33,483 bases of DNA. Source: Planctomycetia bacterium (GTDB taxonomy: Bacteria; Planctomycetota; UBA1135; GCA-002686595). The position numbers and the translations under genes were made by a program. Position 1 is the first letter of the stretch. Every line of letters starts with the position of its first letter. Shown one piece after another: positions 2,909 to 12,159 of the stretch. A model generated the notes under the pieces. That model was not told the DNA's origin and made no database searches. It saw only the letters and a program-made list of their open reading frames with translations. Location of the stretch: NCBI GenBank assembly GCA_005789645.1, contig SXXH01000260.1, positions 1 to 33,483 on the forward strand, given 5' to 3'.

Positions 2909-3610
2909 TCAGCTGTCGGAGCGGCGTTCCAGCAGCCGCAATCGGCGCAGCACAGCCTCCGAGAGGCGACGCGGATCGATCAGCACCGGCGTGACCGCCC
3001 ATGTGTCGAGCCGATCGTCTCCGTAGACGAGCGTGCCCGCATGCTGGTTCTTGTCGCGATCGACTTCCGGATCGGGGTCCCAGAGGCCCATGCTCTTCCT
3101 GATGGCCGTGATGTCCTCTTCGCGGCCGGTGCAATAGATCCAGTCGGGCTTGTTCGGTTCCTCGACGATGCCGTAGCGCTCGCGCATTTCGCGCAAGGCC
3201 GCGGGCGTGTCGTTCTCGGGGTCGATGCTGATGGAGACCATCAGCACGTCCTTGCCGACTCGTTGGGCGATCTGGTCGCGAACCTGCACGAGGTTCGCCG
3301 TGTTCTTGGGTCAAATGCCCGTGCAACTGGTGTACATGAAGTTCAACAGCACGGCCCGGTCGCGGACCAGGTCGGTGCGGAACTTCACGATTCGTTCGTC
3401 GTGAGTGGTCAGCTCGACGTCGGCGAAGCGATCGGCGCGGCGCTCGCCGGCCGGCATGGGCGTCACCAGCGTGGCGCGCGTGCTTTCGTCGAGCACCAAG
3501 GGCGACATGGAGGCTTGTCCGACGCCTTCGATCGGCTCCGCGGACTTGGGTGTCGCGCAGGCGGCGAAGAAGAGCAGCGCGGAGGTGGAGAGGAGCTTCG
3601 TGTGGCGCAT
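2909..3610 (-). CDS. SCO1/SenC-family copper chaperone with in-frame UGA in the CxxxC motif (candidate selenoprotein)
   Basis: Read through the UGA at 3313-3311, this is a complete 233-residue SCO protein. The chosen ATG (3608-3610) gives a lipoprotein signal, MRHTKLLSTSALLFFAAC, with lipobox FAAC, so it would be anchored in a membrane facing the periplasm. The thioredoxin-like core shows LLNFMYTSC, then T-G-I-UGA-P-K-N-T-A-N-L, then SISIDPENDTP. The family motif is CxxxCP, with both cysteines and a distal His binding copper. Here C96 is present, the second Cys (residue 100) is UGA, and the candidate His is H190 in QHAGTLVYG. Related MCO-associated SCO proteins read CTGICP at this place. Without readthrough the product is a 99-residue stub lacking the metal site. 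It sits downstream of two multicopper oxidases, fitting copper delivery to them. The alternative is a nonsense mutation or base error of a TGC/TGT codon. Confidence 0.8.
3278..3313 (-). promoter_or_regulatory. candidate bacterial SECIS: in-frame UGA plus downstream hairpin
   Basis: On the SCO mRNA the UGA (3313-3311) is followed after 12 bases by GCGAACCU (3298-3291), loop CGUGC (3290-3286) and AGGUUCGC (3285-3278). The stem is a perfect 8 bp. The loop begins 21 bases after UGA and its second base is G, followed by U. This agrees with the published bacterial SECIS consensus: apical loop roughly 16-37 bases after UGA, with a G among the first two loop bases. The hairpin is inside codons for ANLVQVRD, as expected for a bacterial element that must also be coding. 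Chance pairing in GC-rich DNA cannot be excluded, and there is no bulged U as in E. coli fdhF. Confidence 0.5.
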
Positions 3611-3764: not shown

Positions 3765-5453
3765 TCAGGGGAAGAACGCGCCGATCGGCGTCGGTTCGGG
3801 CGCGGGGGTCGAGCGCGGATCGAAGGCGAGCATCATGCGCATGTCCTCGTGTTCCACCGCGTGGCAGTGGAACACGAACGGACCCTGGAAGGTGCGGAAG
3901 CGGAGCTTCGTCTCGACCACGTCGTTGGGGCCGAGGATGGAGATGTCGTTCTTGAAGCGTTCCCAGCTGCGTGGCGCCTTGCCGTTGTGGCGCACGATCT
4001 GGTGGTGCTCGAGGTGCACATGCACGGGATGCCACCAGCCGCCCGAGCCGTTCTCGAAGATCCAGCGCTCGGCCGTGCCCAGGAGCGGCGTGGCCTCCGC
4101 CTGCATCTCGTCGAAGAACTTGTCGTTGATCTTCCAAGCGCCGTTCGAGCGATGGAATCGGAAGCGGCGCGTGGCGACGACCTCGGAATCGGCGATCTCG
4201 CGGTAGGGACGCAGCGGCGTGCCGACCACGACGGCGACGTCGTTCTGCACCGGCGGACCAACGACATCGAAGCGCAGCAGCGGCATGGGCGAGTCGAGCA
4301 GCCTGGGACGATCCCAGTCGCCATCGGGGCCGCGGCCGCTGTCTTGCTCGAGGTGGTTGCGCAGGAACACCGTGTCGGGGGCGTTGCGGAAGTCGATGAT
4401 CACGTCGGCGCGCTTGCCGGGCGACAAGAGGATCTCGCTGGCGGCCTGCGCGGCCGGCAACAACACGCCATCGTTGCCGATGCGCACCATCGTGCCCGCC
4501 GACAACCGCAGCAAGTAGTAGCGCGCGTTGGCGCCGTCGAGGAAGCGGAAGCGGTACTTGCGGCGTTCGACGCGCAATCGCGGTTGCGCGATGCCGTTGA
4601 CGGTCTCGATGTCGCCCAGGTACCCGTCGTGGTCGAGCGGATCGAAGTAGATCGTGCCGTCTGCGCGCAAGCGCCTGTCGGCGAAGCACAGCGGGACGTC
4701 CTGGTCGCCCGAGGGCAACACGCGGTCGGCGATCATCTGCGCTTCGAGCTCGTCGCACGCGAGGTAGAAGCCCGCCAAGCCCATGATCACGTTGTGCGCC
4801 GCGATGTCCATCGCGTGGTCGTGGTACCAGTTGGTCGACGAGCAGTCGCCGATGTCCACGCTGCCGTCCGGCAGGGTGGGCGCGAAGTTGGGGTAGTAGT
4901 AGTCGCGCGCCTCGCCTGGCTCGATGTAGAAGTTCGGGTAGCCGTCGGAGTGCGCCGGCGTGTGCCCGCCGTGCAGGTGCACGCTGGTCGGATGGTGCAG
5001 GCTGTTCTTGAAGCGCACCACGAACGGCTCGCCCAGCTTGCAGTGGAAGGTGGGTCCAGGCGCGATGCCGTCGTAGCCCCAGATGGGCGTTTGCACGCCG
5101 GGGATGATCTCCGACAGTCCTTCGCGTTGCTCGATCTCGTACAAGCACAAGGGATGCCGCTGCCACTGCGCGGGCCGTGTGCTGAACTCGGGCGCGATGC
5201 CGTGCAGGCAGTCGCCGGGGGTGAACGGCAGACCGGTGATCGGCAGGGCCCCCGCCAAGCGCGACGCCGGTTGCTTCACAGGTGGAAGCGGCAGATCGCG
5301 CGTGAACGGGGTGAAGGTGAAGGGGGAAGGCGGGCCCCCGTCGAGGGGGCGTGTGGCAGGAGACGCCGCGGGCACGACCCTGGACAGTCCGAGCAGCGAG
5401 CCCAGACCCAAGGCCATGCTCACGCTGCGCCGCGTGGGCATGTGATGTTGCAT
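3765..5453 (-). CDS. multicopper oxidase (CotA/bilirubin-oxidase type), Tat-exported, copy 1
   Basis: This 562-residue laccase-like protein has three cupredoxin domains and would oxidise a substrate at the type-1 copper while reducing O2 to water at the trinuclear centre. All copper-ligand motifs are present: SVHLHG (H159, H161), NWYHDH (H211, H213), HPVHVH (H475, H478, H480) and HCHAVEHEDMRM (H529, C530, H531, H535, axial M540). The axial Met and HCHxxEHED signature place it with CotA/bilirubin oxidase. The N-terminus MPTRRSVSMALGLGSLLGL is a twin-arginine signal. The ATG at 5451-5453 was chosen; 5439-5441 is equally possible, and neither has a Shine-Dalgarno sequence. It is a close paralogue of the next upstream gene. 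The SCO gene follows 154 bases downstream. The physiological substrate (phenolic, Mn(II), Cu(I) or other) cannot be told from sequence. Confidence 0.93.
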   Translation of the reverse strand: MQHHMPTRRSVSMALGLGSLLGLSRVVPAASPATRPLDGGPPSPFTFTPFTRDLPLPPVKQPASRLAGALPITGLPFTPGDCLHGIAPEFSTRPAQWQRHPLCLYEIEQREGLSEIIPGVQTPIWGYDGIAPGPTFHCKLGEPFVVRFKNSLHHPTSVHLHGGHTPAHSDGYPNFYIEPGEARDYYYPNFAPTLPDGSVDIGDCSSTNWYHDHAMDIAAHNVIMGLAGFYLACDELEAQMIADRVLPSGDQDVPLCFADRRLRADGTIYFDPLDHDGYLGDIETVNGIAQPRLRVERRKYRFRFLDGANARYYLLRLSAGTMVRIGNDGVLLPAAQAASEILLSPGKRADVIIDFRNAPDTVFLRNHLEQDSGRGPDGDWDRPRLLDSPMPLLRFDVVGPPVQNDVAVVVGTPLRPYREIADSEVVATRRFRFHRSNGAWKINDKFFDEMQAEATPLLGTAERWIFENGSGGWWHPVHVHLEHHQIVRHNGKAPRSWERFKNDISILGPNDVVETKLRFRTFQGPFVFHCHAVEHEDMRMMLAFDPRSTPAPEPTPIGAFFP

Positions 5454-5674
5454 TTGGGGAGGTGGAGATGAGTGGCCGTCCCATTCATGGGAAGAAGGGC
5501 CGGCGGGGAAATCCGTCGATGGGATGAAGGACTGCTTGGAACCCCAACCAAAGCGCAATTCTCTGTGTGCCCCATAGTGCAAGGGATGGGCAAGTCCTTC
5601 CCAGAACCGCCTGCGCGGGCAGTCAAGCAAGCCGGCGCGCGCTCGGACGGTGGCCAACAATGACGCAAAGCGAG

Positions 5675-5744: not shown

Positions 5745-7499
5745 TCAAGGGTAGTACGCCTGGATCGGTTGCGGCGCCTGCGTCGGCGAGACGCGCGGGT
5801 CGAAGACGAACATCATGCGCATGTCCTCGTGCTCCAAGTTGTGGCAGTGGAACACGAACGGACCGGTGAAGGTGCGGAAGCGCATGTGGATCTCGGCTGT
5901 GTCATTGGGGCCGAGGATGGCCACGTCGTTCTTGTGACGTTGGACGAGCGGGGGCAGTTGTCCGTTGAAGCGCACGATCTGGTGGGACTCCAAGTGAATG
6001 TGGATCGGGTGCCACCAGCCGCCGCCGCCGTTCTTCAAGATCCACTTCTCGGCGGTGCCCAAGGTGGGCGTGGCGTCGGCGCGGAACTCGTCGAAGAACT
6101 TGCCGTTGATCATCCACGCGCCGTTGGAGCGGTGGAAGAGGAACTCGCGCGTGGCGACGACGTCGGAAGCAGGGATGGGATGGCTGGGACGCAACGTCGT
6201 GCCGGGGGCCACGGTCGCGTCGTTGTCGACCGGCGCGCCCTCGACGATGAACTTGATCAGCGGCTGGCCGGGGTTGAGGCGTTGAGGGTTGGCGGAAGTG
6301 CCATGGGGCCCGCGACCGCTGTCCTGGCGCAGGACATTGACCAAGTACACCTCGTTGGGCGCATTGCGGAAGTCGACGATGACATCGGCGCGCTTGGCGG
6401 GGCTGAGCATCAGCTCGTTCGTCTCGACGGCCTGCGGCAGCAACCAGCTGTCGTTGCCGATCTGCGTGAAGTTGCCGGAGGTGAGCTTAAGCAGGTAGAA
6501 GCGCGCGTTGGCGCCGTCGAGGAAGCGCAGGCGGTACTTGCGGCGCTGGACGCGAATGAAGGGTTGGGCCACGCCGTTGGCGCATTGGATGTCGCCGAGG
6601 TACCCGTTGTGGTCGAGCGGATCGAAGAAGATCGTGCCGTTGGAGCGCAAGCGGCGGTCTTGCAGCACGATCGGGATGTCTTGCGCGTCCGAAGGCAGGA
6701 CATTGTCGGCGATGAGCTGTTCCTCGAGGTCGTCGGTGAACAGATGGAACCCGGCCAGTCCCATGATGCAGTTCTCGGCCGTCAGGTCCATGCCGTGGTC
6801 GTGGTACCACATCGTGGAGGGCGACTCGCTGTAGTCGAACTCGCCGCTGCCGTCGGCCTTGCGCGGCACGATGTTCGGGTAGTAGTAGTCGCGTTGCTGT
6901 CCGGGCGAGACGTAGAAGTTCGGATAGCCGTCGCCGTGCGCGGGCGTGTGGGCGCCATGCAGGTGCACGCTCGTCTCGTGGGGAATGTTGTTGGCGACGC
7001 GCACGACCATCGGTTGGCCGATGCGGCCACGGAACGTCGGGCCAGGATAGAGGCCGTCGTAGCCCCAGATCGGCGTCTGCACGCCCGGCAGGATCTCGGC
7101 GAAGCCGGGACGCTGGTCGAGCTCGTACAGATGCAGCGGACCGCGCTGCCAGTCGCTGGGATGGTTGAAGTACTCGGGCGCGATGCCGTGGTGCACGTTA
7201 CCCGGTTGCCACGGGAAGTTCGCGGCCGCGGGAGAGTTCGGATCGATGATGGCCACGGGAGCCTTCGTGCCAGGACGGGGCATCTCGCGCGTGAACGGCA
7301 CGAAGTTGAACGGGGACGAGGGCAGCGAGACGCCGTTGCCGTCGACGCCGCCACCGGGACCGCCACCGTTGCCGCGGCAGGCGCCACCCTGTTGACGCGC
7401 GCCGGCGGCGCCGGCCAAGCCGAACATGGCGCCGGCGCCGGCGAGGAGGTTGAAGCCGCGGCGCGAGAGGCCGGCTTCGTCGTTGCGGGACTTGCTCAT
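5745..7499 (-). CDS. multicopper oxidase (CotA/bilirubin-oxidase type), Tat-exported, copy 2
   Basis: This 584-residue paralogue of copy 1 aligns with it along its length, including long identical stretches such as GVQTPIWGYDG and DSGRGP. Ligand motifs are SVHLHG, MWYHDHG, HPIHIHL (H497, H500, H502) and HCHNLEHEDMRM (H551, C552, H553, H557, axial M562). The ATG at 7497-7499 gives MSKSRNDEAGLSRRGFNLLA, a twin-arginine signal with an Ala/Gly-rich h-region, followed by a Gly-rich linker (GGACRGNGGGPGGGVDGNG) not found in copy 1. The frame extends upstream to 7904, but that part is terminator and spacer sequence and has no signal-like start. No Shine-Dalgarno sequence precedes the ATG. Tandem duplication within the locus is the simplest origin; the differing N-terminal linkers suggest the copies are not recent. 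Confidence 0.93.
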   Translation of the reverse strand: MSKSRNDEAGLSRRGFNLLAGAGAMFGLAGAAGARQQGGACRGNGGGPGGGVDGNGVSLPSSPFNFVPFTREMPRPGTKAPVAIIDPNSPAAANFPWQPGNVHHGIAPEYFNHPSDWQRGPLHLYELDQRPGFAEILPGVQTPIWGYDGLYPGPTFRGRIGQPMVVRVANNIPHETSVHLHGAHTPAHGDGYPNFYVSPGQQRDYYYPNIVPRKADGSGEFDYSESPSTMWYHDHGMDLTAENCIMGLAGFHLFTDDLEEQLIADNVLPSDAQDIPIVLQDRRLRSNGTIFFDPLDHNGYLGDIQCANGVAQPFIRVQRRKYRLRFLDGANARFYLLKLTSGNFTQIGNDSWLLPQAVETNELMLSPAKRADVIVDFRNAPNEVYLVNVLRQDSGRGPHGTSANPQRLNPGQPLIKFIVEGAPVDNDATVAPGTTLRPSHPIPASDVVATREFLFHRSNGAWMINGKFFDEFRADATPTLGTAEKWILKNGGGGWWHPIHIHLESHQIVRFNGQLPPLVQRHKNDVAILGPNDTAEIHMRFRTFTGPFVFHCHNLEHEDMRMMFVFDPRVSPTQAPQPIQAYYP

Positions 7500-7550
7500 G
7501 GGAGTGGGAGTTGATTCGGGGGAGTCGGGGAGAGACGGGATGGGGTACGG

Positions 7551-7570
7551 GGGAAGTGGGTGGACTTCCC
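7551..7570. repeat. inverted repeat GGGAAGT-N6-ACTTCCC before multicopper oxidase copy 2
   Basis: A perfect 7+7 inverted repeat with a 6-base spacer lies 52 bases upstream of the oxidase ATG, a position suitable for an operator. A similar arrangement, GGAAGT-N7-ACTTCC, occurs at 24152-24170. A regulatory role is inferred only from symmetry and position. Confidence 0.4.
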
Positions 7571-7763
7571 GGACATGCGAACTCTCCCCCGGGGGCAAGG
7601 GCCGCGGGGGGCGGAATGTTGTCAAATTTCTTGGACAGCGACGGGCATGGAAAGGCGTTACTAGCCAGGCAGCGGCGGCTGTCGCGAACCCGGACGGAAC
7701 GTGGGAAGCGAATGCATGCAACGCCATTCGTTCCACTCGTCCGAACGCGCAGGAACGGCGGAA

Positions 7764-7804
7764 AAAGCAGGTGGCCGCCATCCTCGCGCGAGGATGGCGG
7801 CCAC
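7764..7804 (-). terminator. rho-independent terminator of the peroxidase/beta-helix gene
   Basis: A perfect 17-bp palindrome (GTGGCCGCCATCCTCGC at 7771-7787 and its complement at 7788-7804) is followed on the minus strand by CTGCTTTTTC. It starts 23 bases after the stop of the 7828-11733 gene. Hairpin plus U-tract is a classical intrinsic terminator and separates that gene from the oxidase gene downstream. Confidence 0.85.
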
Positions 7805-7827
7805 CGCCGTCTTGGATCTTGCGTCCC

Positions 7828-10800
7828 TCAGGAACCGACCACCGGGTGCGCGCCGATGTCGATGCGCGAACCATCGGGATCGTTCCCGGACGGATCGCCG
7901 CCATCGATCATCGGCGAGCCGTAGCGCGGACCGTGCTGGCCGCCCGCGGCGTCGAGGAACAGCGGATCCACCTGCAAGTAGCCCGTGGCCGCGAAGCCGT
8001 TCCAGTCGACGATCGAGTGCTCCACCACGCCTGGCAGGAGGTGCGACACGTTGGTGCCCAGCGCGTTGAGCGTGCCACCGCCCCAGATCACGGAGTTGTG
8101 GATCCACGCGTTGTTGGAGTTCATGAAGTACAGCTGCAAGCCGCTGTTCGTCGCGATCGTCGTGCTGCCGAAGTTGAGCACGCCGCCGTCGATGTACATG
8201 CCGCCCGCGCCGTTCTGCGCCGTGTTGTTGGTCACCTTGGCGCCGCGGAAGCTCATCACCACCGAGTTCTCGGCGTGGATGCCGCCGCCCGCCTGGTTCG
8301 ACGAGTTGTGCATCACGCGCACGTTGACGAAGTTGGTGGAGCCGCCGTTCAGGAACAGGCCGCCGCCGAACTGCCCGGCCTGGTTGTGGTCCAGCGCCGA
8401 GTTGTCGACCACCAAGGTCGCCGTGTTCATGGCGTGCACGCCGCCGCCCTTGTTGCCGGCGATGTTGTTGCGCACCCACGACAGGTCCAGGTCGGCGCGG
8501 CCGCCGTTGATGTACAAGCCGCCGCCATCCTGCAACGCGGTGTTGCCGTCGATGGTCGCGTCCTGGAAGGCGACCTTCGAGCTGTTGCGCACGTGCACGC
8601 CGGCGCCGTTCTGGGCCAGGTTCTGGCCGATGTAGCAGGCGTCGATCACCACGTCGGAGCTGTCGGTGACCAGCACCCCGCCCGCGACGGCGTTCTGGCC
8701 GCCGCCGTTGACGATGCGCAGGCCCACCAAGCGCGTGCCGCGGGTATGGCGTCCCGAGACCGTGATGGCCGGACCGTTCATGCCGCCGTCGATGGTGGCG
8801 CCGGCGTACGAACGCAGGATCACGTTCTTCTTCTGGATGTGGACGTTCTCCCGGTACGTGCCCCAGCCCACTTCGATCAAGGCTCCGGCCTCCGCGCACT
8901 CCAACGCCTCGGCGATGGTGTCGTACGGATTGGCGTAGCTGCCGTTCTCGAAGTTGGGGTTGGCCGTGTTCTGGTCGACGTAGACCACCTTCACCATGTG
9001 CGTCGAGTCCTGCACCGAGTAGTGCACATCCTCGACGGGCATGCCGTTGTAGCGCGGGTCGGCCGAGCTCGTGGCCGAAGTGACGACCGTCGCGACGGCC
9101 AGGCCGTCGTGGATGTCGTCCTGCAAGCCGTTGACGCGGATCTCCTGCGGGTGGAACCAGTCCTGCGTCGTGAAGACCAACTGCGACGGTTCGACGCTCA
9201 TCTGGTTGGGCGACGAGCTCGAGAGGTCGATCACCACGTCCGCCGTCGGGCGGGTGCTGAGCGACACGCGCACGTGGCGGTTGCTGTCGAAGGGCAGCGC
9301 GTACTGGCCGCAGCCTTCGTGGCCCGCTTCGTAGATCGTGTTGCCGCAGTGCACCAGCACCTCGACGCCGCCTTCGATGCGATCCTGGAACTCCGGCAAG
9401 GTCGTGGATCCGCCGGCCGCGCCCGTGGCCGGGATCTCGGTGATGCGGGCCATCGCTTCGCCCTGGCCGTTGTCGACCAGCACCATCTCGTTGCCGAGAT
9501 AGCCGTCCTTGAGGGGCAGCGACGGATGGCTGAACACGCCCGAGGAGTTGGCCACGCGCGGGTCCGTCAGGGCCTCGCGCAGGAACGCCGCCAGCGCGGC
9601 TTGCTTCTCGGGACTGTTGCGCAGCGTGCCGACGCCGTCGACATCGGCGTCGAGGTCCGCGTGGTTGGCCTCGGCGAAGTCGGCGCCGCGAGCGTAGAAC
9701 TGGATCACTTGCTCGAGCGTCGAGGCGCCGCCGTGGTGGAAGTACGGGCCCGTGAGCGCGATGTTGCGCAGCGAGGGCGTCTTGAACGTGCCGTTCACCT
9801 GCAGCCTGTCGCCGGGTCCGATGGGCGGATTCGGCATCAGGTGCGCCACGGTGGGATCGCCGCTCTTGAGGCGTTCGACGATCGAGGTCGGTCCGACGGC
9901 GCCATGCGTGCCGTTGCCCAGGTCCTCGAAGGTCGGGCGCGCGCCGAGGTTGTAGAAGCCGCGGTCGTACACGCCGACCGATTGCGGCGAACCCATGGTC
10001 ATCGACGCCACCACGACGCCATCAAGGAGCACTTGGTAGGCGCCGGCGGGCAGGCTGGGGTCGGGACCCCATTGCATGCCGACTTCGAGGGTCACGTTGC
10101 ACAGGCCGCTCGGCAAGGGCACTTCATTGACCTCGACCTCGACGGTGGCCGCGAACAGCGGTTCGAGTCCGGAACCTGCGGGCGGCACGGGAGCCACCGG
10201 GCCCGCCGCCAAGTCGACCGCTTGCTCGAAGATCTCGCAGGCGCCGGGCGTGCCCGGAACATCGCCGCGCGCGACCAAGTCGCCCTGCGGCGTGCGGATC
10301 TCGATGCGCTTGCCGCGCGGATCGGAGGCCAAGATGGTCTGCGTCGGGTCGGGGAAGGTCGTCAACACCACCTCGCCCTCGACCAGGGAGTCGGTCACGG
10401 CCATCTGTTCGGTCCAACCGTCGGCCGCGTACTGCGACCAGGTCGCACCGGCGAACTCGGGCGCCGTGTGGCACGCGTTGCAGGCCGCGCCGCCGCCCAT
10501 GTAGATGTTCAAGCCTTCCTTCTGCTGGTCGGTCAGCGCGTTCTGGTCGCCGGCCGCGTAGCGGTCCCACGGCGTCTGGTCGCTCACCAGGGTCGACTCG
10601 TAGCACATGATCGCGAGGCCCCAGAACAACGAGAAGTTGTTCTCGATCTGCGTGTAGCCGCCGAAGCGGCCCTTGCCCGTGTGCCACTGGTCGTGGAAGG
10701 CGGCACGCACCATGTCGGCGTAGGTCAAGGACGCCTGCAGGCCGCGATTGGGGAAGTCGGACAGCGCGCCCAAGTGGAAGTCGGTCGAGTCGACGACCTG

Positions 10801-11733
10801 GTCCTTCAGTGGTTGCATCGGGAGCATCTTGCGCCCGAGGTCCTTGAAGGCCTTGCCGGAGTAGCTCATCTCGACGTCCGACAGGGCCGGGCCGACCGCC
10901 TGGCTGGCGAGCGACGCGGGCTGGATGGCGACCGAGACCGGCTGGACGCTGCCATCGGCCATGCGCTTCAGCACGCGCGCCGCGGTGTCGCGCGCGCCGA
11001 GGTGGTTGACGCCGTTGAACACGCTGTCGGCGCGACCGTCCCAGAACGTGCGCACGTGGAAGATGGCGTTGTAGGTCGAGGGCGCGTTGCGTCCCGTGAC
11101 TCGACCGACATTCACGCCATGCATGGCGAAGGGGATGTCGTTGGCGACGACGACGCCTTGCTCCTGCGCGACGCCGGGCGTGACGCCGGTGAAGGTGCGT
11201 CGCTGGATGCCCGACGACCCGTACCTGTCGTTGCTGTCGCGCACCACCTCGGAGTCGTGGTCATTGGGGTCGGAGCGCTGCGTGAAGGGGAAGTCGCGAC
11301 CCTTGACCGTGTAGTTGACGCCTCCGCCACCCGAGCCCAGCAAGCCGAAGGTGTTGTCGAAGCCGGGGTGGAGCTGCGACATCGTCCGGTTGTCGGCGCC
11401 GGCGTTCCAGTGGCACGAAGCGCAAGCTGTCGCTCCGTCGGAACCGGCCTGGATGTCCCAGAAGAGCGCCTTGCCGAGACGCACCGCGGCGTCGAAGTCG
11501 CGCACGTACTCGGTCATCAGGTTCGCCGGCAGGGGAATGGGCAGGCTGGAGAGCGGCGGCGCGGGCGTCGCGTCCTCGGGGCCGCCGGCGACTTCGCCGT
11601 TGATGCCCGTGTTGCGCTTGGCGTTGCCGCCTTGCGCGTCGGCGTCGGGTAGCAAGAAGGCCGAAGCGGCCACGATGCCCAGGATCGTCGGGACGAAGCG
11701 GCTCGACGAGGGCGTGATGGATCGGGAGTGCAT
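7828..11733 (-). CDS. di-haem cytochrome c peroxidase (MauG/CcpA-like) fused to a parallel beta-helix
   Basis: The 1301-residue exported protein starts MHSRSITPSSSRFVPTILGI and has a cleavable signal ending near DADAQ. Residues about 75-720 are a MauG/CCP-type domain. The first haem motif is CASCH (C104, C107, H108) and the second CNACH (C418, C421, H422), with typical YNAIFHVRTFWDGRA, TPSLRNIALTGPYFHHGG and VIQFYARGAD segments. A spacer inside it (about 440-560) is longer than usual. Residues about 760-900 look like a beta-sandwich linker. From about 900, YVDQNTANPNFENGSYANPYDTI opens a right-handed beta-helix with short glycine-rich coils (GGGLYINGG, GGGVHAMN, GGGLFLNGG). Family members reduce H2O2 or oxidise protein or small substrates; beta-helices often bind or cleave polysaccharide. 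The fusion suggests a peroxidase tethered to a surface polymer, which is inference. A clear terminator follows. Confidence 0.88.
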   Translation of the reverse strand: MHSRSITPSSSRFVPTILGIVAASAFLLPDADAQGGNAKRNTGINGEVAGGPEDATPAPPLSSLPIPLPANLMTEYVRDFDAAVRLGKALFWDIQAGSDGATACASCHWNAGADNRTMSQLHPGFDNTFGLLGSGGGGVNYTVKGRDFPFTQRSDPNDHDSEVVRDSNDRYGSSGIQRRTFTGVTPGVAQEQGVVVANDIPFAMHGVNVGRVTGRNAPSTYNAIFHVRTFWDGRADSVFNGVNHLGARDTAARVLKRMADGSVQPVSVAIQPASLASQAVGPALSDVEMSYSGKAFKDLGRKMLPMQPLKDQVVDSTDFHLGALSDFPNRGLQASLTYADMVRAAFHDQWHTGKGRFGGYTQIENNFSLFWGLAIMCYESTLVSDQTPWDRYAAGDQNALTDQQKEGLNIYMGGGAACNACHTAPEFAGATWSQYAADGWTEQMAVTDSLVEGEVVLTTFPDPTQTILASDPRGKRIEIRTPQGDLVARGDVPGTPGACEIFEQAVDLAAGPVAPVPPAGSGLEPLFAATVEVEVNEVPLPSGLCNVTLEVGMQWGPDPSLPAGAYQVLLDGVVVASMTMGSPQSVGVYDRGFYNLGARPTFEDLGNGTHGAVGPTSIVERLKSGDPTVAHLMPNPPIGPGDRLQVNGTFKTPSLRNIALTGPYFHHGGASTLEQVIQFYARGADFAEANHADLDADVDGVGTLRNSPEKQAALAAFLREALTDPRVANSSGVFSHPSLPLKDGYLGNEMVLVDNGQGEAMARITEIPATGAAGGSTTLPEFQDRIEGGVEVLVHCGNTIYEAGHEGCGQYALPFDSNRHVRVSLSTRPTADVVIDLSSSSPNQMSVEPSQLVFTTQDWFHPQEIRVNGLQDDIHDGLAVATVVTSATSSADPRYNGMPVEDVHYSVQDSTHMVKVVYVDQNTANPNFENGSYANPYDTIAEALECAEAGALIEVGWGTYRENVHIQKKNVILRSYAGATIDGGMNGPAITVSGRHTRGTRLVGLRIVNGGGQNAVAGGVLVTDSSDVVIDACYIGQNLAQNGAGVHVRNSSKVAFQDATIDGNTALQDGGGLYINGGRADLDLSWVRNNIAGNKGGGVHAMNTATLVVDNSALDHNQAGQFGGGLFLNGGSTNFVNVRVMHNSSNQAGGGIHAENSVVMSFRGAKVTNNTAQNGAGGMYIDGGVLNFGSTTIATNSGLQLYFMNSNNAWIHNSVIWGGGTLNALGTNVSHLLPGVVEHSIVDWNGFAATGYLQVDPLFLDAAGGQHGPRYGSPMIDGGDPSGNDPDGSRIDIGAHPVVGS

Positions 11734-12159
11734 TGTGGGGATGGACGAGTGGGAGACGAGAGCGTTCCGCGGGCTGCGGATCGCCTGGCGCGCGCACCGA
11801 GGAGCGGCGCGCGCCTGACGGGATGGGAACGGACTCCCGCCGAGCGGGAATTCCACTCGAAAGCTACTGCCGGCGTTGGCTGCCCGAGCGCGCGAAACAA
11901 GCCTCGAAATCCAAGCGAAATTGCTTCCAAGTCGAAGCGGGAAGTCGCTTCGAGGCCGGCGTCCAAGATCGGGACGCGCAAGAAAAATAGACAGCGCCGA
12001 GCACCGGCAAGGGCGTGGCGGATCCAACCACGAACATGCTCGCCAACGACACGCGAACGCGTGGCGCGCAGGGATGCGACTCCGGGGAGGCGCGCGTCGC
12101 CGAACGGCTGGTCGCCGATGGCGCAAGGTGGTCGCGGGCGCGCGCGGCGCGCTGCGCGC
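11734..12159. other. intergenic stretch between the propeller and peroxidase genes
   Basis: The 426 bases contain no supported gene. A hairpin with 8-bp arms TCGAAGCG/CGCTTCGA (11932-11939 and 11946-11953) is nested in a larger GCCTCGA...TCGAGGC pairing (11901-11956). An AT-rich patch near 11980-11990 reads TCTATTTTTCTT on the minus strand. A GGAATTCC palindrome is at 11847-11854. The patch could be a U-tract for the upstream gene or part of the promoter of the peroxidase gene; I cannot decide. Confidence 0.5.

Follow-up and report, generated by a model that had tools for sequence, protein, structure and literature searches.

A gene of the SCO/SenC copper chaperone family in a planctomycete genome very likely (probability about 0.9) encodes a selenocysteine (Sec) protein made by standard recoding of an in-frame UGA, and the likeliest job of this protein is maturation of a multicopper oxidase (MCO). 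This reading is held in the absence of expression, mass-spectrometric or selenium-labelling data. The window, as we call the whole stretch of DNA analysed here, comprises the 33,483 nucleotides of contig SXXH01000260.1 of a Planctomycetia bacterium. Its initial annotation, made without database searches, had proposed the gene as a candidate for a selenocysteine protein. Our results support the proposal, and none of the outcomes named there as refuting it (no Sec machinery in the genome, read data showing TGC or TGT, random disruptions of the gene in close relatives) was met.

The gene, of 233 codons, occupies positions 2909..3610 of the minus strand, a strand that the initial annotation had not stated; an ATG at 3610 opens it and a TGA at 2911..2909 terminates it. 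Translated with TGA as U, it reads ...LLNFMYTSCTGI-U-PKNTANLVQVRDQIAQRVGKDVLMVSISIDPENDTP...QHAGTLVYG. The sole internal stop of the frame is the TGA of codon 100 (3311..3313, minus strand), read here as Sec, and alignment with solved SCO proteins puts it in the column of the second cysteine of CxxxCP. The earlier claim that a UGA on this cysteine is the only interruption in 233 codons was thus upheld by both alignment and translation. Cys96 and Pro101 of the motif are present and position 100 is the UGA (CTGIU-P); the CxxxCP criterion for SCO membership is met only on condition that Sec is taken as the equivalent of Cys. The Pfam SCO1-SenC profile (PF02630) matches residues 67-173, spanning the UGA, at 5.1e-16 and above its cut-off, while no NCBIfam model matches the protein, and Rfam and tRNA scans of the window gave no hits. 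The third SCO copper ligand, assigned by conservation, is His190 of the QHAG segment (3041..3043, minus strand). At the N-terminus there is a lipobox-like LFFAAC (3557..3574, minus strand), in which the predicted lipidation cysteine, residue 18, is invariant in an alignment of six Sec members. An AlphaFold model built from 52 homologues has a mean pLDDT of 84, with block averages above 90 over residues 61-220; its best PDB matches by Foldseek are Sco1, ScoI and YpmQ structures, and a profile search against PDB sequences returned SCO-type entries only. We infer from these predictions that the protein is exported, probably lipid-anchored, and has a thioredoxin fold of the SCO type.

The UGA is not a peculiarity of this contig. 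Together with the window's gene we count 25 distinct UGA-bearing SCO genes, after collapsing identical copies, in 24 planctomycete genomes of several families. Within the order there are five further distinct ones in four genomes (two in G013 and one each in G056, G065 and G081), and a phylum-wide search added 20 genes from 19 more genomes belonging to four other families. The interruption is TGA in all 25 genes, never TAA or TAG. The initial annotation had suggested aligning homologues to see whether some carry UGA and others Cys, and this is what is observed: 122 homologues, from Planctomycetota, Acidobacteriota, Myxococcota, Nitrospirota and Pseudomonadota, have Cys at the UGA column, and relatives show either Cys or UGA there, without random disruptions. 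Both the conservation of the UGA and the existence of Cys homologues are thus shown. The first motif cysteine is kept in every one of the UGA genes, and the distal copper-ligand histidine in 25/25 Sec genes and 115/122 Cys genes. The same TGA is found in separately deposited MAGs, for example NYUD01000026 (CPC51), JAJDEW010000016 (OFTM43) and JAUIEE010000045 (8_bin.21), our loci L101, L121 and L127, which represent three of the four other carrier genomes within the order. In the stretch after the UGA, dN/dS between closely related carriers is about 0.05-0.19 where dS is measurable; elsewhere dS is saturated. Purifying selection on the sequence past the UGA is therefore established for close carriers with unsaturated dS. 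Three other genomes (G143, G142 and G039) were rejected as carriers: the TGA counted there is the native terminal stop, and the motif codon is TGC.

A search for a SECIS, also suggested earlier, yielded a SECIS-like hairpin just after the UGA. It lies at 3278..3298 (minus strand; MFE fold), has an 8-bp stem closed by the loop CGUGC (GCGAACCU-CGUGC-AGGUUCGC), and begins at the 13th nucleotide after the UGA. A bacterial SECIS element is a short hairpin that closely follows the UGA and carries a G in its apical loop. The stem common to the family pairs nucleotides 18-23 with 29-34, where position 1 is the U of UGA. In this fixed place 25/25 UGA genes, versus 6/122 Cys genes, can form a stem of 6 bp or more. 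The Fisher value for these counts is 6e-19, which overstates the strength of the association because related sequences are not independent. The peptide pattern Asn-Leu-x-x-Val cannot explain the excess, since among genes encoding it the fixed stem is found in 24/24 UGA genes versus 4/73 Cys genes. The apical loop is x-G-U-x-x in all 25 UGA genes because residue 108 is Val in each of them; this residue varies widely in Cys homologues. The stem also needs GTT at Val110, a codon that makes up 2.9% of the window's Val codons; it is used by 24/25 UGA genes versus 20 of the 103 Cys genes with Val there, and the one that does not use it, from G013, combines GTG with TGC instead of AAC and retains the stem.

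In a set of 21 thinned UGA genes the stem codons 106 and 110 show 90% pairwise identity, compared with 20-35% for codons 101, 104, 117 and 119, of which 101, 104 and 119 are neighbouring four-fold codons with 30-35%. From the frozen stem codons and the GTT preference we infer selection on the RNA. When codons are replaced at random by synonyms, the fixed stem arises with a probability of 0.0045-0.034 per gene (six genes), and the synonymous-codon test for the window's own gene gives P = 0.013. It should be noted that, compared with dinucleotide shuffles, the MFE of the hairpin is not exceptional (z about –1). As such z-scores are uninformative, the fixed-position stem and synonymous-codon tests were used instead, and the case for the hairpin rests on conservation. 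The conserved hairpin itself is shown; that it is a SECIS-type element remains putative, with recognition by SelB inferred. The six Cys-type genes able to form the fixed stem come from Acidobacteriota (L095, L111, L116 and L155) and Planctomycetota (L073 and L190). In the acidobacterial genes the stem may have come about by chance from the NLxxV codons, or it may be left over from an ancestor with Sec.

Sec machinery, another point that the initial annotation had left to be checked, is present in the genome. The assembly is 3.6 Mb in 330 contigs and 71.6% complete. One contig, C241, holds tRNA-Sec (76 bits, anticodon TCA), part of selA (416 bits, split between C94 and the start of C241) and selD. 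The latter has an in-frame UGA of its own (L009:1764-1766, NCAG-U-AAK), from which we infer a selenocysteine-type SelD; a short GC-rich inverted repeat follows this UGA. SelB was not found in this incomplete and fragmented assembly, and the top candidate was rejected as its sequence is that of translation initiation factor IF2. The SelB search gives, in most genomes of the order, a second, weaker match of the strength expected for EF-Tu. Since a match of this strength is apparently missing from the window's genome too, the selB gap is most likely technical. Across the order, tRNA-Sec is found in 138 of 154 genomes and selB over the cut-off in 139 of 154, the latter including all other carriers (G013, G056, G065 and G081). 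Among all carrier genomes 23/24 have tRNA-Sec, the exception being G296, which is 84% complete. UGA serves as an ordinary stop in the window, where 14 of the 15 genes with stops read, the SCO gene included, end in TGA; the earlier statement that the code is not reassigned thus held. A genome of the same genus as the window's, G068 (88% complete, fragmented), yielded neither tRNA-Sec nor a Sec-SCO, and its SelB matches stayed below the cut-off; this counts against the Sec reading but possibly reflects a recent loss of Sec decoding.

Directly upstream of the SCO gene, about 158 nt from the SCO match, lies an MCO gene (3765..5660, minus strand; PF07732/PF07731), the likely client. Its best PDB match is bilirubin oxidase (9.7e-65), and it also resembles CotA. 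A second MCO gene, a tandem paralogue, lies farther upstream at 5745..7904 (minus strand; PF07731/PF07732). An MCO gene is found upstream on the same strand in 25/25 UGA SCO genes, and also upstream of most Cys homologues, in Acidobacteriota, Myxococcota, Nitrosomonas, Methylobacter and others. With this distribution the linkage is shown and the arrangement is no local accident. The simplest reading, likely but inferred, gives this SCO subfamily a role in maturing the adjacent oxidase, either as copper donor or as reductant of the copper-site cysteine. SCO proteins do not serve every MCO: in Rhodobacter capsulatus the MCO CutO did not need SenC (PMC8456105). Upstream of both oxidases the window encodes a 1432-aa ORF (7828-12126, minus strand) that combines a di-haem cytochrome c peroxidase/MauG domain with a right-handed beta-helix region.

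The mechanism that we propose is as follows. SelA and SelD would produce Sec-tRNA-Sec, and SelB would recognise a hairpin, starting 13-15 nt past the UGA, that has a stem of 6-8 bp and G-U in its apical loop. The UGA would then specify Sec in place of the second cysteine of an exported SCO/SenC lipoprotein with a thioredoxin fold, whose site would consist of CTGIU-P and His190. This SCO may hand Cu(I) to the MCO encoded upstream or keep its copper-site cysteine reduced, and the selenolate may bind the copper, serve as a redox residue of low potential that resists oxidation, or do both. Insertion of Sec at codon 100 is inferred and very likely; copper binding through selenium and the oxidase as client are inferences as well. 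The altered redox potential and metal affinity expected earlier for a CxxxU site are plausible, again by inference and without measurements. The retained histidine favours a copper role over pure redox chemistry for the selenium, though this too is inferred and sequence cannot decide it. One may go further and envisage a Cys-Sec-His copper site in a chaperone dedicated to loading a periplasmic MCO, with the choice between Sec and Cys varying within the family; we would put no more weight on this bolder version than on its negation.

Of the alternatives, the one that survives best accepts the Sec protein and makes it a peroxidase or a general thiol-disulfide oxidoreductase rather than a factor of copper delivery or oxidase maturation. 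SCO proteins share the peroxiredoxin/thioredoxin fold, the protein has a weak AhpC-TSA match, and peroxiredoxin structures appear among the lower fold hits. Besides, Sec usually improves redox catalysis. Against this stand the copper-ligand histidine, present throughout the Sec genes, and the copper oxidase gene adjoining each carrier gene, so that we consider this alternative the weaker of the two without being able to set it aside. It is very unlikely that the gene gives only a short 99-residue product, or a split SCO of two ORFs with internal restart. A 126-aa ORF does start with a GTG at 3289. However, it is precisely the catalytic codon that is interrupted, and in 25 genes only ever by TGA; a split would also cut a single thioredoxin-fold domain where the motif helix starts in the AlphaFold model, and it leaves unexplained the association with tRNA-Sec and the frozen hairpin codons.

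An error of sequencing or assembly, or a pseudogene arising from a single nonsense mutation, could be suspected in a genome so fragmented and incomplete, but either is all but excluded. Separate assemblies contain another 24 distinct genes with TGA at this codon, and the recurrence of the TGA in separately deposited MAGs rules out sequencing error as the source of the pattern; in close carriers the part after the UGA, with its conserved histidine, is under purifying selection. Reassignment of UGA to Trp or Gly in the lineage, for which only the position of the UGA inside an open frame speaks, is likewise all but excluded: almost every window gene checked, the SCO gene itself among them, terminates in UGA, Sec machinery is present, and homologues show Cys at the column rather than Trp or Gly.

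The Sec-containing SCO is, then, very likely a real and conserved selenoprotein family, undescribed in the literature that we searched. The initial annotation knew of no described Sec-containing SCO, and this held: we found no description in the open-access literature, subscription papers and preprints being outside the scope of the search. That Planctomycetes have selenoproteins is known in general terms (PMC4807772). Among the 119 prokaryotic selenoprotein families or subfamilies listed in a 2026 review (PMC13188914), SCO/SenC does not occur, nor does a CxxxU motif. With the known SCO1/SenC chaperones (PF02630; human SCO1, B. subtilis BsSco/YpmQ, Bradyrhizobium ScoI) the protein shares the profile and the predicted thioredoxin fold, the first Cys, the Pro and the distal His, as well as predicted export and probable lipid anchoring; unlike them, it has UGA/Sec as second cysteine and its gene is linked to an MCO gene. 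Copper-related prokaryotic selenoproteins include CopZ-type (2Fe-2S) proteins, an E1-E2 cation ATPase and the SO_0444 Cu/Zn efflux transporter (PMC13188914, Table 1). These also handle metal and have Sec at or near a metal or redox motif, but they belong to other families, none of them SCO and none with CxxxU. Selenoproteins of the thioredoxin fold (Prx, TlpA UGC type, DsbG/DsbA-like, redoxin UxxC; PMC13188914, Table 1) resemble the Sec-SCO in fold, in Sec at a redox cysteine and in standard bacterial recoding; their motifs, however, are of types such as UxxC, CxxU or TxxU, not CxxxU, and to our knowledge no distal His copper ligand occurs among them. In gene arrangement, sequences not having been compared, the closest parallel is the iodide oxidase (iox) cluster, in which the MCO IoxA is accompanied by the SCO1/SenC homologues IoxB, IoxD and IoxF (PMC9415286). 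It likewise places SCO genes next to an MCO gene, but has three of them, and its SCO homologues were not reported as selenoproteins.

If true, our reading adds a new family to the prokaryotic selenoproteome and gives a copper chaperone an active-site selenocysteine. Whether SCO proteins are copper donors or thiol reductases has long been debated. Selenium in some members and sulfur in their relatives would allow this question to be approached directly by comparison, through redox potential, affinity for copper and spectroscopy of selenium at the copper site. Standard gene calling would truncate Sec-SCO genes in planctomycete genomes.

The origin of Sec in the family is less clear. A quick tree with long branches has four changes between Sec and Cys, while a single Sec clade is not rejected (p-AU 0.204) on a tree of 119 sequences, from which the 20 later-found UGA genes were left out. 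It is possible that Sec arose more than once; the tree does not resolve this. Two SCO homologues, L046 (G003) and L086 (G107), lack both motif cysteines and have Gly and Tyr in their place; they appear to be non-redox relatives.
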